NCBI GenBank assembly: GCA_017396555.1 | Contig: JAFQLS010000025.1 | Coordinates: 62,001 to 126,000, forward strand | Length of the DNA: 64,000 nucleotides | Source: Lachnospiraceae bacterium | Lineage (GTDB): Bacteria > Bacillota > Clostridia > Lachnospirales > Lachnospiraceae | Reading direction: 5' to 3' | Part shown: positions 7,218 through 12,355 of the stretch, in pieces | How positions within the stretch are numbered: the first letter of the stretch is position 1 | Layout: the number at the start of each line of letters is the position of its first letter | The notes under the pieces: model-generated | Told to the model about the DNA's origin: nothing | Database searches by the model: none | What the model saw: only the letters and a program-made list of their open reading frames with translations | Program-made: the position numbers and the translations under genes

Positions 7218-8486
7218 ATGGATAAACAGTTATTACATACACCGGAAGGCGTAAGAGATATTTATAATAAGGAATGTGCAAATAAAATATATATTGAGAA
7301 TAAAATACATAATGTGCTTAACAGCTACGGATACAGAGATATTCAGACGCCTTCATTCGAATATTTTGAAATTTTTAATAAAGAAAGAGGTAGTGTTGCT
7401 TCTAATAATATGTATAAGTTTTTTGACCGAGAGGGTTATACATTAGTATTAAGACCTGATATGACACCTTCAATTGCACGTTCTGCTGCAAAATATTTTA
7501 GTGATGAGGACATGCCTATTAGATTTTGTTATCAGGGAAATATGTTTATCAATAATAATGAATATCAGGGTAAGTTAAAGGAATTTACCCAGCTTGGTGC
7601 AGAATTAATCGGTGATACTACATCGGATGCAGATGGTGAAATGATAGCAATGGTTGTAGATTCGTTTCTACAGGCAGGATTAAAGGAATTTCAGGTTGAG
7701 GTTGGACAAGTTGATTTTTACAGAGGGCTTATTGATGAAGCTAACATAGAAGAAGATACTGAAAGAGAACTTCGTTCTATGATTGAGAATAAGAATTACT
7801 TTGCTATAGAAGAAATTCTTGATAATCTTGATATAGCTGATGATATAAAAAATACTTTTCTTAAGTTTCCGGAATTATTCGGTGGTCTTGAAATGCTTGA
7901 AATGGCAAAAAAACTTACGAATAATAAAAGAGCATTAAGAGGAATAGAAAGACTTGAGAAATTATATGGAATTCTTGAAAATTACGGATATAGCAAGTAT
8001 GTATCATTTGACCTTGGTATGATTGGTCATTATGATTATTATACAGGAATAATATTTAAAGGTTATACATATGGAACAGGTGATGCAATAGCTACAGGTG
8101 GAAGATATGACAATCTTCTTAAACAGTTTGGTAAAAATGCTCCGGCTATTGGGTTCGCAATAGATGTAGACAGACTTATGTCAGCGCTTAGCAGACAGAA
8201 GATAGAGGTTGATGCTAATTATGACAAGACTACGGTATTATATATGCCATCTATGCAGAAAAATGCTATTGACCTAGCAGGAATGCTTCGACATTCAGGC
8301 AAAAAAACAGAATTGATTAGAAAACGCTCTGTTAAAAATATTGATGATTATATTGATTATGCATCAAGGCATGACATTGATACAATATATTACCTTGAGG
8401 GAAAAGGAAGTATATTGCAGATTAATGTTAAGGAGCAGACTCATAAGAATATAAAATTAGAAAAAATTAAGGAGGAATTAGCATAA
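7218..8486 (+). CDS. hisZ: ATP phosphoribosyltransferase regulatory subunit HisZ
   Basis: Histidyl-tRNA synthetase paralogue that partners short-form HisG to form the hetero-octameric first enzyme of histidine synthesis and to carry its feedback control. The class II aaRS-like core is visible: [12 protein letters not shown] near the start, [12 protein letters not shown], the motif-2-like [18 protein letters not shown] with [10 protein letters not shown], and a late [27 protein letters not shown]. The 422 residues, with a weak anticodon-binding region and a short-form HisG next door, favour HisZ over HisS. It is the first gene of the operon, with a GGAGAG ribosome-binding site, and its stop overlaps the hisG start by one base. 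Confidence 0.9.
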
Positions 8487-9121
8487 TGAGATATTTAACA
8501 TTTGCCCTTGCAAAGGGAAGGTTAGCTAAGAAATCCCTTGAAATATTTGAAAAATTAGGTATTACCTGTGAAGAAATGAAGGACGAAAAAACTAGGAAGC
8601 TTATTTTTGTAAATGAGGAATTAAAGCTTAAGTTTTTCCTTGCAAAAGCAAGCGATGTACCTACATATGTTGAATATGGTGCTGCAGATATTGGTATTGT
8701 TGGTAGCGATACAATTATTGAAGAAGGTAGAAAGTTATTCGAAGTAGTTGACCTTGGTATAGGAAAATGCAGAATGTGTGTATGTGGTCCAAAGTCAGCA
8801 AAGGAGCTTCTTAAGCATCATGAGATGATAAGAGTTGCAAGTAAATATCCTAAAATAGCGAAGGATTATTTCTATAATAAGAAACATCAGACCGTTGAAA
8901 TTATTAAACTTAACGGTTCTGTAGAATTAGCTCCGCTTGTAGGTTTATCAGAGGTTATTGTAGATATAGTAGAAACCGGTTCGACTCTTAGAGAAAATGG
9001 TCTTGAAGTATTAGAGGAGATTTGTCCTTTATCTGCAAGAATGGTTGTTAATCAGGTTAGTATGAAAATGGAAAATGAGAGAATTATGAAGCTTATAAAA
9101 GAGTTAAAAGAGGTTTTATAA
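8486..9121 (+). CDS. hisG: ATP phosphoribosyltransferase catalytic subunit HisG (short form)
   Basis: Catalyses ATP plus PRPP to phosphoribosyl-ATP, the first committed step of histidine synthesis. At 211 residues it lacks the C-terminal ACT-like regulatory domain of long-form HisG, consistent with dependence on the adjacent hisZ. Motifs: [20 protein letters not shown] at the N-terminus, [16 protein letters not shown], and the PRPP loop [16 protein letters not shown]. The start overlaps the hisZ stop (TAATG), typical of translational coupling for subunits made in fixed ratio. Confidence 0.93.
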
Positions 9122-9184: not shown

Positions 9185-10480
9185 ATGCGTATAATTAAGC
9201 TTGATGAAAATTCAAAAAAGAATATTTTAAATGATTTATTAAAAAGAAGTCCTAACAATTATGATTCTTATTCAGATAAGGTTGCAGTAATTGTTAATGA
9301 TGTTAAGGAAAAAGGCGATGAAGCTGTATTTTCTTATACAAAGCAGTTTGATGGAGCTGATTTAAATGCTGATAATATTTTAGTTACTGATGAAGAAATC
9401 AAAGAAGCTTATGCTGAACTTGAGAAAACAGGATTAGTTGATATTATTAGAAAAGCTCTTGCTAATATTGTGGATTACCACACAAAACAGAAGCAGTACA
9501 GCTGGTTTGACAGTAAGCCGGATGGATCAATTCTTGGTCAGAAGGTTACTCCTCTTGAAAGAGTGGGTGTATATGTACCGGGCGGAAAGGCTGCTTATCC
9601 ATCATCAGTACTTATGAACGTTGCTCCTGCTAAGGTTGCCGGTGTCGATGAGATTATTATGACTACACCACCCGGAAAAGATGGAAAGGTTAATTTTGGT
9701 ACACTTGTAGCTGCTAAGGAAGCAGGTGTAGATAAGATATTTAAGGTGGGTGGAGCTCAGGCTATAGCTGCACTTGCTTATGGAACAGAGTCTATTCCAA
9801 AGGTTGATAAGATAGTAGGGCCAGGTAATATTTATGTTGCCCTTGCTAAGAAAGCCGTATATGGACATGTTAGTATTGATTCAATCGCAGGACCTAGTGA
9901 AATTCTAGTTCTTGCTGATGAAACAGCTAATCCTAGATTTGTGGCTGCTGATCTTTTATCACAGGCAGAACATGATGAGCTTGCTTCTGCAATTCTTGTT
10001 ACAACAAGTGAAGAACTTGCTAATAAGGTATCAGAGCAGGTTGAAGTATTTGTAAATGAATTATCAAGAAAAGAAATTCTTGAGAAATCCCTTGAGAATT
10101 ATGGATACATATTAGTAGCAGATTCTATGGAAGATGCTATAGATGTGGCTAATGAAATCGCTTCTGAACACCTTGAAATTGTTACAAAGGATCCATTTAA
10201 TACAATGACTAAGATTCGTAATGCAGGTGCTATTTTCCTTGGAGAATATAGTTCGGAGCCGCTTGGAGACTATTTTGCAGGTCCAAATCACGTTCTTCCA
10301 ACTAATGGAACAGCAAAATTCTTCTCACCACTTAGCGTGGATGATTTTATTAAGAAATCAAGTATAATTTCATTTTCTAGAGAGGCATTAGAGCCTATAA
10401 GTAAGGATATTATAAAATTTGCAGAGTCTGAACAGTTAACAGCTCATGCAAATTCTATAAAGGTTAGATTCGAGGAATAA
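9185..10480 (+). CDS. hisD: Histidinol dehydrogenase HisD
   Basis: Zinc- and NAD-dependent enzyme that oxidises L-histidinol to L-histidine in two steps. Family signatures are clear: ERVGVYVPGGKAAYPSSVLMNV, KVGGAQAIAALAYGTESIPKVDKIVGPGN, DSIAGPSEILVLAD, the SQAEHDELA segment with zinc/catalytic Gln and His, SEHLEI, and the C-terminal GPNHVLPTNGTAKF. Length is 431 residues, full size. It is separated from hisG by a 63-base gap containing a palindrome and is followed 12 bases later by hisB. Confidence 0.95.
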   Translation: MRIIKLDENSKKNILNDLLKRSPNNYDSYSDKVAVIVNDVKEKGDEAVFSYTKQFDGADLNADNILVTDEEIKEAYAELEKTGLVDIIRKALANIVDYHTKQKQYSWFDSKPDGSILGQKVTPLERVGVYVPGGKAAYPSSVLMNVAPAKVAGVDEIIMTTPPGKDGKVNFGTLVAAKEAGVDKIFKVGGAQAIAALAYGTESIPKVDKIVGPGNIYVALAKKAVYGHVSIDSIAGPSEILVLADETANPRFVAADLLSQAEHDELASAILVTTSEELANKVSEQVEVFVNELSRKEILEKSLENYGYILVADSMEDAIDVANEIASEHLEIVTKDPFNTMTKIRNAGAIFLGEYSSEPLGDYFAGPNHVLPTNGTAKFFSPLSVDDFIKKSSIISFSREALEPISKDIIKFAESEQLTAHANSIKVRFEE

Positions 10481-10492
10481 TTAGGAGGCATT

Positions 10493-11080
10493 ATGGCAAG
10501 AGAAGCTACAATAAAAAGAAAAACTAAAGAAACAGATATTGAATTAACACTTAACATTGATGGTAAAGGTAATTCTGAAATTGATACAGGAATTGGCTTC
10601 TTTGACCATATGTTAGCAAGCTTTGCAAGACATGGTTTGTTTGATTTGAAATGCAAGGTTAAAGGTGATTTGTATGTTGATTCGCACCACACTATAGAAG
10701 ATACAGGTATTGTTCTAGGTGAGGCTATTAAGAAGGCAATAGGTGATAAGAAGTCTATTAAGCGTTATGGTACTGCAATTTTGCCTATGGATGAAGCTTT
10801 GCTTATGAGTTCGCTTGATTTATCAGGAAGACCTTATCTTGTATACGATGTGGAGCTTACTGTTGATAAGCTTGGATATTTTGATACAGAGATGGTTAAG
10901 GAATTCTTTTATGCTATTTCTTATGCATCAGGTATGAATTTACATATTAAGATGTTAGCCGGAAGCAATAACCACCACATAATAGAGGGTGTATTTAAAT
11001 CATTTGCAAAGGCTCTTGATGAAGCAACAATAGTAGATAACAGAATTACAGGAATCCTCTCAACTAAGGGTTCATTATAA
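10493..11080 (+). CDS. hisB: Imidazoleglycerol-phosphate dehydratase HisB
   Basis: Manganese enzyme that dehydrates imidazole glycerol phosphate to imidazole acetol phosphate. The two conserved histidine motifs are present: FFDHMLASFARHGLFDLKC with DSHHTIEDTGIVLGEA, and the second set SNNHHIIEGVFKSFAKALDEA. It is monofunctional (195 residues), without the HisN-type phosphatase domain found in enterobacterial HisB. Start ATG 10493 has TTAGGAGGC upstream. Its substrate would come from HisF/HisH, whose genes are not in this window. Confidence 0.95.
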   Translation: MAREATIKRKTKETDIELTLNIDGKGNSEIDTGIGFFDHMLASFARHGLFDLKCKVKGDLYVDSHHTIEDTGIVLGEAIKKAIGDKKSIKRYGTAILPMDEALLMSSLDLSGRPYLVYDVELTVDKLGYFDTEMVKEFFYAISYASGMNLHIKMLAGSNNHHIIEGVFKSFAKALDEATIVDNRITGILSTKGSL

Positions 11081-11104: not shown

Positions 11105-12355
11105 GTGTCATACATTAAGATTATACCAACAATTTATTTAAAAGACGAAAAGGCATATTTAGATAAAACATTTACAGGAGAAGGCTATAACCCTGTAGAA
11201 ATATGCGAAAATTACAGTGATAATGGTGCTGACGAGATTCTTATTATGGATATGTCTGATTCAGATGCCACACATGAGAAAAATATTCTTATTATGAAGG
11301 AAATTGCAGATGCGGTGGATGTACCAATGCTTATTGGCGGCAATGTTAAGCGTCTTGAGGATGTTAAAAAATATATTTATGCCGGTGGTCAGGTTGCAGT
11401 ACTTGATATGAACAAGGAATCTAATGTTGAGATGATTAAAGAAGCATCTGACAGATTTGGCAAGGAAAATATTGCAGTAATGGCTGATAAGGATACGGAT
11501 GTATCTGTATTATATGAAGCTAAGGATAAGGGTGCATATTTTATTATAGCAGATGGTGAGTTGACTAATCTTGATATAGCAAAGACTGGTCTTAAGGTTC
11601 TTGCTAAGGAATCTGATGTTGAACCTGAATATCTGTATGGTATAAGTAATGTAGATTTATCTGAAATTGGTTTTGATATTATGGATTTGAAAAATGCATA
11701 TAAGCTTGAAGGATTTGAAGTAAATATGTTTGAAAGTTCAATGCATTTTAGTGATTTTAAGCTTAATAGCGACGGACATATTCCTGTTATTGTTCAGGAT
11801 TATAAGACGGATGAAGTATTAATGCTTGCTTATATGAATGAAGAAGCATTTAATAAGACTATAGAAACAGGTAAGATGACTTATTATAGTCGCAGTCGTG
11901 ATGAATTATGGATTAAAGGTCTTACTTCAGGACATTTCCAGTATGTTAAGTCACTTACACTAGACTGTGATAATGATACAATTCTTGCAAAGGTTAAGCA
12001 GATTGGTGCTGCGTGTCATACAGGTAACAGAACCTGCTTCTTTAATACACTTGTTAAGAAAGAATATGATGAAACTAATCCGCTTAAGGTATTTGAGGAT
12101 GTATTTAATGTTATTTTAGACAGAAAAGAAAATCCAAAGGAAGGCTCTTATACAAACTATTTATTCGATAAGGGTATAGATAAGATTCTTAAGAAATTAG
12201 GTGAAGAGGCTACAGAGATAGTTATTGCTGCCAAGAACCCGGACCCTGAGGAAATAAAATATGAAATGTCTGATTTTCTGTATCATGCTATGGTTCTTAT
12301 GGCTGAAAAAGGCGTATCTTGGGAGGATATAACTAAGGAATTGGCACGTAGATAA
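11105..12355 (+). CDS. hisIE: Fusion: degenerate HisF-like barrel + HisI cyclohydrolase + HisE pyrophosphatase
   Basis: Three parts are visible. Residues 1-215 resemble HisF ([27 protein letters not shown]). Residues 222-318 are HisI (phosphoribosyl-AMP cyclohydrolase), with [30 protein letters not shown] and zinc ligands in [11 protein letters not shown]. Residues 327-416 are HisE (phosphoribosyl-ATP pyrophosphatase), with [14 protein letters not shown] and YEMSDFLYH. Against HisF, the catalytic Asp11 aligns with Tyr11, the phosphate loop GGGI is GGNV (78-81), the RDGTxxG loop is absent and the second glycine-rich phosphate site reads YGISN. The HisI and HisE parts look active, catalysing steps 2 and 3 of the pathway; the barrel is probably non-catalytic. 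The start is GTG. Confidence 0.88.

Follow-up and report, generated by a model that had tools for sequence, protein, structure and literature searches.

A gene in the histidine operon of a Lachnospiraceae bacterium encodes a HisIE protein preceded by a HisF-like barrel which, judged by its residues, has lost its own HisF chemistry and is a pseudoenzyme. The gene lies within the window, that is, the whole 64,000-nucleotide stretch of DNA analysed here. HisIE proteins and his gene fusions are already known; what is new is a HisIE carrying a dead, probably re-used HisF domain. We hold with about even confidence that the retired HisF has been put to use as a docking or clamp domain, a structural partner of HisE, and the most economical reading is of barrel, HisI and HisE as a single unit.

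The fusion gene directly follows hisZ, hisG, hisD and hisB (Table 1), and a search for RNA control elements returned no Rfam family at its gathering score in the window. A Pfam scan of the 416-residue product finds His_biosynth (PF00977) at residues 6–134 (E 3e-17), PRA-CH at 240–313 (E 9e-36) and PRA-PH at 334–416 (E 2e-21). The NCBIfam HisIE model NF002747 gives 268.1 bits against a cut-off of 187, placing the protein within HisIE, and the hisF model TIGR00735 gives 64.8 bits over residues 29–192, well short of its cut-off of 294.55. Among PDB chains, phmmer ranks HisF proteins top (4evz, E 2e-18, residues 5–128). As a preliminary description of the gene had proposed, the HisI and HisE domains keep their key residues: D287, C288, D289, D291, C304, H305 and C311 of HisI and E367, E368, E371 and D390 of HisE are invariant in 71 aligned members, and we take them to have catalytic or metal-binding roles. 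Similar fusions had also been anticipated in related genomes and were found there: 331 relatives were confirmed, the best 80 of which all span barrel, HisI and HisE. An artefactual or chance fusion is thereby ruled out.

Table 1 Features of the fusion gene and of the his genes upstream of it, in window coordinates
Feature	Coordinates	Strand	Basis
hisZ	7218..8486	+	TIGR00443, 344 bits (cut-off 271.65)
hisG	8486..9121	+	TIGR00070, 203 bits (cut-off 75.75)
hisD	9185..10480	+	TIGR00069, 558 bits (cut-off 243.8)
hisB (imidazoleglycerol-phosphate dehydratase)	10493..11080	+	NF002111, 281 bits (cut-off 231)
HisF-like barrel-HisI-HisE fusion gene	11105..12355	+	GTG start, 416-aa ORF
Pseudo-HisF barrel, residues 1–215	11105..11749	+	PF00977; PDB HisF matches; eight-stranded AlphaFold2 model; barrel profile match
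Motif residues D54–H57, start of helix 2	11264..11275	+	Residue conservation among 81 barrels
Motif R83–G94 (RxEDVKKxxYAG), start of and along helix 3	11351..11386	+	Conservation; model helix 84–92
R117-F118-G119, end of helix 4	11453..11461	+	Conservation among 81 barrels
HisI (PRA-CH) domain, residues 216–325	11750..12079	+	PF01502 at 240–313; NF000768 at 215–321, above cut-off
HisI Tyr233, conserved with the barrel	11801..11803	+	Tyr counts in fused, canonical and HisE-lacking rows
HisE (PRA-PH) domain, residues 326–416, and stop codon	12080..12355	+	PF01503 at 334–416; TIGR03188 above cut-off

The barrel had been described as aligning with HisF from start to end. By sequence this holds for the N-terminal half, to which solid similarity is limited because the PF00977 and PDB matches end near residues 134 and 128; the remainder is HisF-like through the eight strands of an AlphaFold2 model and a HisF-like tail near K196. 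The reported state of the active site stands in full: a tyrosine takes the place of Asp11, the two phosphate-site sequences are changed (GGNV and YGISN) and the DGT loop is absent. Across 81 barrels (the window's and those of 80 related loci) Asp never occurs at position 11, which is variable (Y, F, P, H, S and others). The position equivalent to Asp130 of HisF is still Asp in the window copy (D128) and in 22 of the 81 barrels overall, and the pair Asp11 and Asp130, which we take to be the catalytic residues of HisF, is found together in none. On these grounds the barrel cannot be HisF as known.

The barrel is also surplus, since the window's genome encodes a full HisF adjoining HisH on another contig (TIGR00735, 385.8 bits; TIGR01855, 245.6 bits) as well as a HisA. 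This HisA (L002:1489-2259), of the NCBIfam type hisA_euk (322 bits, cut-off 229.3), is encoded outside the his operon; in other members of the family a bacterial HisA has stayed within the operon. In an 80-genome sample a strong match (E <1e-70) to PF00977, a profile that does not separate HisF from bacterial HisA, is present elsewhere in every HisE-bearing fusion genome except G165 (59 of 60). Five genomes (G165, G505, G516, G526 and G558) carry the barrel fusion with no separate HisF-like match at E 1e-8 among the matches listed. Together with the conservation of D49 (74/81), S51, D54 and H57 near one barrel end, this could be read as a sign that the barrel has remained an enzyme by using a different catalytic residue or reaction, or that it backs up HisF. 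We consider that very improbable: positions 11 and 128 vary and Asp stands at both in no member, and the C-terminal half of the barrel is poorly conserved and in several members shortened. As to the five genomes, HisI is weak in G526 (4.9e-5) and G516 (4.5e-25), which fits pathway decay, and the G505 and G558 assemblies are just 90–91% complete; assembly gaps or pathway decay are thus possible reasons why a separate HisF is not seen.

Loss of chemistry has not been followed by loss of the fold. AlphaFold2 (71-row alignment) models the full protein with a mean pLDDT of 92.2 and a pTM of 0.82, and gives the barrel eight strands, with pLDDT mostly >90; strands 7 and 8 have no helix of at least four residues between them. 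Twenty-two barrel positions are conserved in at least 90% of rows, 20 of them within residues 41–119. D54 (79/81) and H57 (80/81) are found in none of 11 HisF compared; K88, K89, Y92 and G94 are present in all 81 barrels, R83 in 80 and R117 in 77, and F118 and G119, which are common to barrels and HisF, in all 81. The motif is not wholly private, as the 11 HisF have F at position 118 in ten cases, R at 117 in five and R in place of K88 in nine. With a confident eight-stranded model and near-invariant N-terminal residues that are mostly not common to HisF, the barrel is not debris.

Selection acts unevenly along the barrel. Among the close pairs listed (40 of 60), dN/dS is 0–0.33 for the N-terminal half of the barrel, 0.04–1.6 for its C-terminal half, 0–0.28 for HisI and 0–0.17 for HisE, with few changes in the closest pairs; the N-terminal half of the dead barrel is under purifying selection and the C-terminal half is looser. 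Some barrels are reduced to about 140–190 residues, mainly the N-terminal half (for example L107, L112 and L091). Scored over eight motif positions (D54, H57, R83, K88, K89, Y92, R117 and F118), shortened HisE-bearing barrels retain all eight in L107, L112, L113 and L114, seven in L108 and L094 and four in L091. Since shortened barrels mostly keep the motif, the second half matters least. The proposal of a retired enzyme kept for another job thus gains from the separate full HisF, the absence of Asp11 from all members, the purifying selection on the N-terminal half and the barrel's own near-invariant residues. As to the job, the preliminary description had listed channelling, oligomerisation and sensing without choosing; the comparative data below point to the HisE of the same protein as the partner, and do not separate a clamp or channelling role from sensing.

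Where did the barrel come from? The canonical gene order hisB-hisH-hisA-hisF-hisI(E) is found in the same class and in four genomes of the family (L098, L104, L115-L118), and a bacterial hisA still precedes the fusion in L011, L018, L022, L025, L026, L091, L107-L109 and L139. Given this order and the place of the fusion after hisB or hisA, the barrel occupies the hisF slot. Other Clostridia have an intact-looking HisF that reads in frame into HisIE (L099, complement strand) or into HisI (L100, L105, L106). The domain order is the same as in the window's protein; these HisF keep catalytic-type residues and the DGT loop, and no separate pseudo-barrel is present. The HisF-HisI-HisE arrangement of L099 is likely the ancestral architecture.

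On a tree, 27 barrels form one clade (support 100/96), the base of which is occupied by L068, the barrel with the most HisF-like score. The tree cannot root this clade between HisF and HisA, so that descent from HisF is argued from HMM scores and the place in the operon. An origin from HisA was considered and rejected, HisF-type models being best for the barrels of the window, L068, L066, L010 and L044; for the barrel of L048 a WbuZ model is slightly best. Outside the family (f1) the fusion was found in one f4 genome (G003, locus L091). A survey of 226 genomes of the class gave at least 12 HisI frames of ≥330 aa outside f1, and of the eight that were read, seven are HisF or HisA fusions without a pseudo-barrel and one is a frame artefact. 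Three loci of unusual structure may be recorded here. A single 630-codon frame at L026:5221-7110 joins an intact-looking HisA, the pseudo-barrel, HisI and HisE; the barrel frame at L071:6001-6666 has no start codon at its beginning; and at G550:C21:211181-211849 a barrel match contains one stop near its end, the HisI being identical to that of L071.

The distribution of the barrel was followed in 150 genomes of the family, ≥90% complete except the window's own (85%). HisI is present in 141 and HisE in 123, three of the latter being weak matches without HisI. Both domains occur in 120 genomes, four of them canonical; in all 116 non-canonical genomes the HisI frame is ≥317 aa long and so has a long N-terminal extension. 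This extension was confirmed as the barrel in 113 of the 116, by a profile match among the matches listed in 112 and by reading at a contig edge in G545; in G185, G186 and G217 the HisI frame is long and a barrel match is not among the matches listed. In G547 the HisE match lies in a different frame with a stop inside. HisI without HisE, by PF01503, was found in 21 of the 141 genomes. At the 20 such loci that were read, HisI stands alone in 14, is fused to HisA in four (G150, G155, G508, G561) and to a barrel in two (G171, G567); in the remaining genome (G205) the HisI frame is 121 aa. The barrel thus occurs in only two of the 21 genomes with HisI and without HisE, and the association of barrel and HisE over the 150 genomes has a Fisher p of 2e-21, kinship ignored. 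The earlier 80-genome sample, mostly contained in the larger one, had 60 extended HisI with HisE, none unextended with HisE, one barrel without HisE and 12 with neither. Since the barrel is kept almost only where HisE is present, it probably serves the HisE half of the protein.

Several loci show other arrangements. L110, L111, L127 and L128 join HisA to HisI with nothing between, and lack both barrel and HisE. Second HisE-like matches lie at G500:C4:103510-103758 (187-aa frame) and G514:C5:115169-115408 (175-aa frame), in genomes that also have the fusion. At 11 loci with a stand-alone HisI, no replacement for HisE was recognised by eye among the ORFs right after it.

To take account of kinship, the barrel and HisE states were placed on an operon tree of HisG, HisD and HisB from 99 loci, after setting aside canonical loci, near copies and any locus that has under two of these genes (L135 among the last). 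The barrel state needs 15 changes on this tree and the HisE state 13. Among ten independent pairs that differ in the barrel across well-supported branches, HisE differs in the same way in eight, in the opposite way in none and not at all in two (p 0.008).

A common loss need not mean an interaction. The fused protein might simply fold only with its barrel, a passive passenger, with HisE-less lineages having taken up or kept a stand-alone HisI, so that barrel and HisE went together. On a tree of HisI, most HisE-lacking sequences do form a basal grade to the fused ones, and 7–8 changes suffice as against 13 and 15 on the operon tree; trees that gather all barrel-less HisI into a single clade (p 0.057), or all fused HisI (p 0.145), are not rejected, so that some stand-alone HisI may be old or transferred rather than trimmed. 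That tree, however, is built on 109 columns only, and the pattern could reflect convergence after loss of the partner, an old stand-alone form or transfer. Against replacement, 19 of the 20 HisE-lacking loci read have further his genes upstream in the manner of fused loci (the exception is L135), and the HisI of ten barrel-less loci and of L109 is nearer to barrel-type HisI (69–81%) than to canonical HisI (51–67%). Nor does replacement explain L109 and L129, which have lost HisE yet kept the barrel, with just the motif gone. We regard this explanation as unlikely.

The barrels that have outlived HisE also bear on a partnership with that domain. The eight motif positions were chosen on HisE-bearing barrels, which favours these; nine other conserved positions, picked in the same way, therefore serve as a control. 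In the two HisE-lacking barrels, G171 and G567, the motif is retained at 0/8 and 1/8 positions and the control at 9/9 and 8/9. All eight motif positions are kept in 74 of the 81 HisE-bearing barrels, seven in six and six in one; among 12 further HisE-bearing barrels from the survey the counts are eight in seven, seven in three, six in G511 and four in G003 (f4).

The neighbouring HisI domain carries a mark of its own. Position 233 is Tyr in 93 of the 98 rows counted as fused, in none of 17 canonical rows and in four of 22 HisE-lacking rows; of the five exceptions in the fused set, three (L107, L113 and L114) have shortened barrels and the other two (L088 and L103) are actually canonical loci. 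Six HisI positions are fused-specific, that is, conserved in fused proteins and rare in canonical ones. In HisE just P379 is fused-specific, so that a matching HisE surface is not evident.

How might the barrel serve HisE? A former HisF would have been fused to HisIE in the old hisF slot (hisB-hisH-hisA-hisF-hisIE), would have ceased to catalyse after the cell came to be served by a separate HisH-HisF pair, and would then have taken on a new, structural role as partner to HisE. The outer face of N-terminal helices 2–4 (D54/H57, R83, K88, K89, Y92 and R117) would dock on HisE; the linker and what remains of the barrel would rest against HisI near Tyr233; and the active sites of HisE and HisI would be held in a fixed relation such that PRAMP made by HisE is handed to HisI. 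We infer this face from the positions of the residues and the predicted secondary structure, and docking on HisE appears its most likely function; we likewise infer that barrel and HisE touch directly, that the barrel acts as a clamp and affects the transfer of PRAMP, and in what order the events took place. Canonical HisIE works without a barrel, which counts against the need for a clamp. In Acinetobacter baumannii HisIE, according to the available text, PRAMP passes from HisE to HisI by proximity, with no tunnel (PMC10242683), and a clamp would have an obvious use in such a hand-over, although this enzyme too manages without a barrel. Only tentatively would we go on to the full proposal, in which the dead HisF is a non-catalytic third domain fixing HisE against HisI for PRAMP transfer, has shrunk in several lineages towards the (beta-alpha)4 half at its N-terminus, a half-barrel of HisF descent that arose naturally and secondarily, and loses its invariant face once HisE is lost and replaced by something else.

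The clamp has a close rival in a sensor that would respond to a metabolite and act on HisE. The remodelled top of the N-terminal half (D49, S51, D54, H57, G79, N80, R83 and a frequent N at 101) would bind a nucleotide or pathway metabolite and tune HisE. Barrels of the HisF type bind their ligand in the region where D54/H57 and R83 open helices 2 and 3, and G79 (80/81), N80 (65) and the N101-type residue (59) are conserved. The association of barrel and HisE fits equally well, as a sensor would be pointless after loss of HisE, with nothing left to control. On the other hand, the classical site does not take in K88, K89, Y92 and R117, which sit away from it, along helices 3 and 4 or where these end, and the second phosphate-site half is poorly conserved and sometimes missing. 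On its own merits we give the sensor perhaps one chance in five. For HisE as the partner, then, count the co-occurrence, the eight-to-none pairs, the loss of the motif in G171 and G567, Tyr233 and the retention of the motif in shortened barrels; against it count the lone P379 of HisE, the incomplete motifs of G003 (4/8) and G511 (6/8) despite the presence of HisE, the HisI tree and the fact that HisE-lacking barrels number two.

Set beside known systems, the protein resembles HisIE (NF002747) in its two intact catalytic domains with invariant key residues and in its score above the cut-off, and differs in the 215-residue N-terminal barrel outside the model and in family-specific HisI residues such as Tyr233. 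With HisF (TIGR00735) the barrel shares the sequence of the N-terminal half, the operon slot and the eight-stranded model; it scores far below the cut-off, lacks Asp11 and the DGT loop and has a shortened second half and its own motif. A review of his gene fusions covers hisIE, hisNB, HIS4 and HisHF (HIS7), likewise joined his genes; in its available text the parts are described as working enzymes and a HisF barrel on HisIE is not mentioned (PMC1963479). Split his loci have been described in Roseburia, with hisEI in one operon and hisF-hisH in another, the available text making no mention of a barrel (PMC7478625). Our search of titles and abstract openings, with subscription papers mostly outside its scope, found no description of a HisF-type barrel on HisIE. 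Domain atrophy as described in the available text of PMC4432964 offers a parallel in that core elements of a domain are lost and the remainder kept, here in barrels of about 140–190 residues; it differs in that the present case is a secondary reduction of a pseudoenzyme barrel, and half-barrel folding of the short forms is a candidate only.

Barrel evolution by duplication of a half-barrel has its textbook example in HisA and HisF. The present family offers a natural series in the opposite direction, from an intact HisF-HisIE (L099) through a mildly worn (L068) and a worn barrel (the window) to those consisting mainly of the N-terminal half (L107, L112, L091). As this series comes with a clear dependence on the neighbouring domain, the passage from an enzyme to a structural or regulatory domain becomes open to testing. 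A survey of gut genomes places HisE in brackets in its rule for prototrophy (PMC9026213), in the available text; we take this to mean that HisE is optional, which agrees with the 21 of 141 sampled family genomes that have HisI and no recognisable HisE. Behind the name HisIE there is, in the majority of the Lachnospiraceae genomes sampled, a further domain of 215 residues. Lachnospiraceae are common gut bacteria, and the barrel-HisIE fusion is found in many of them.
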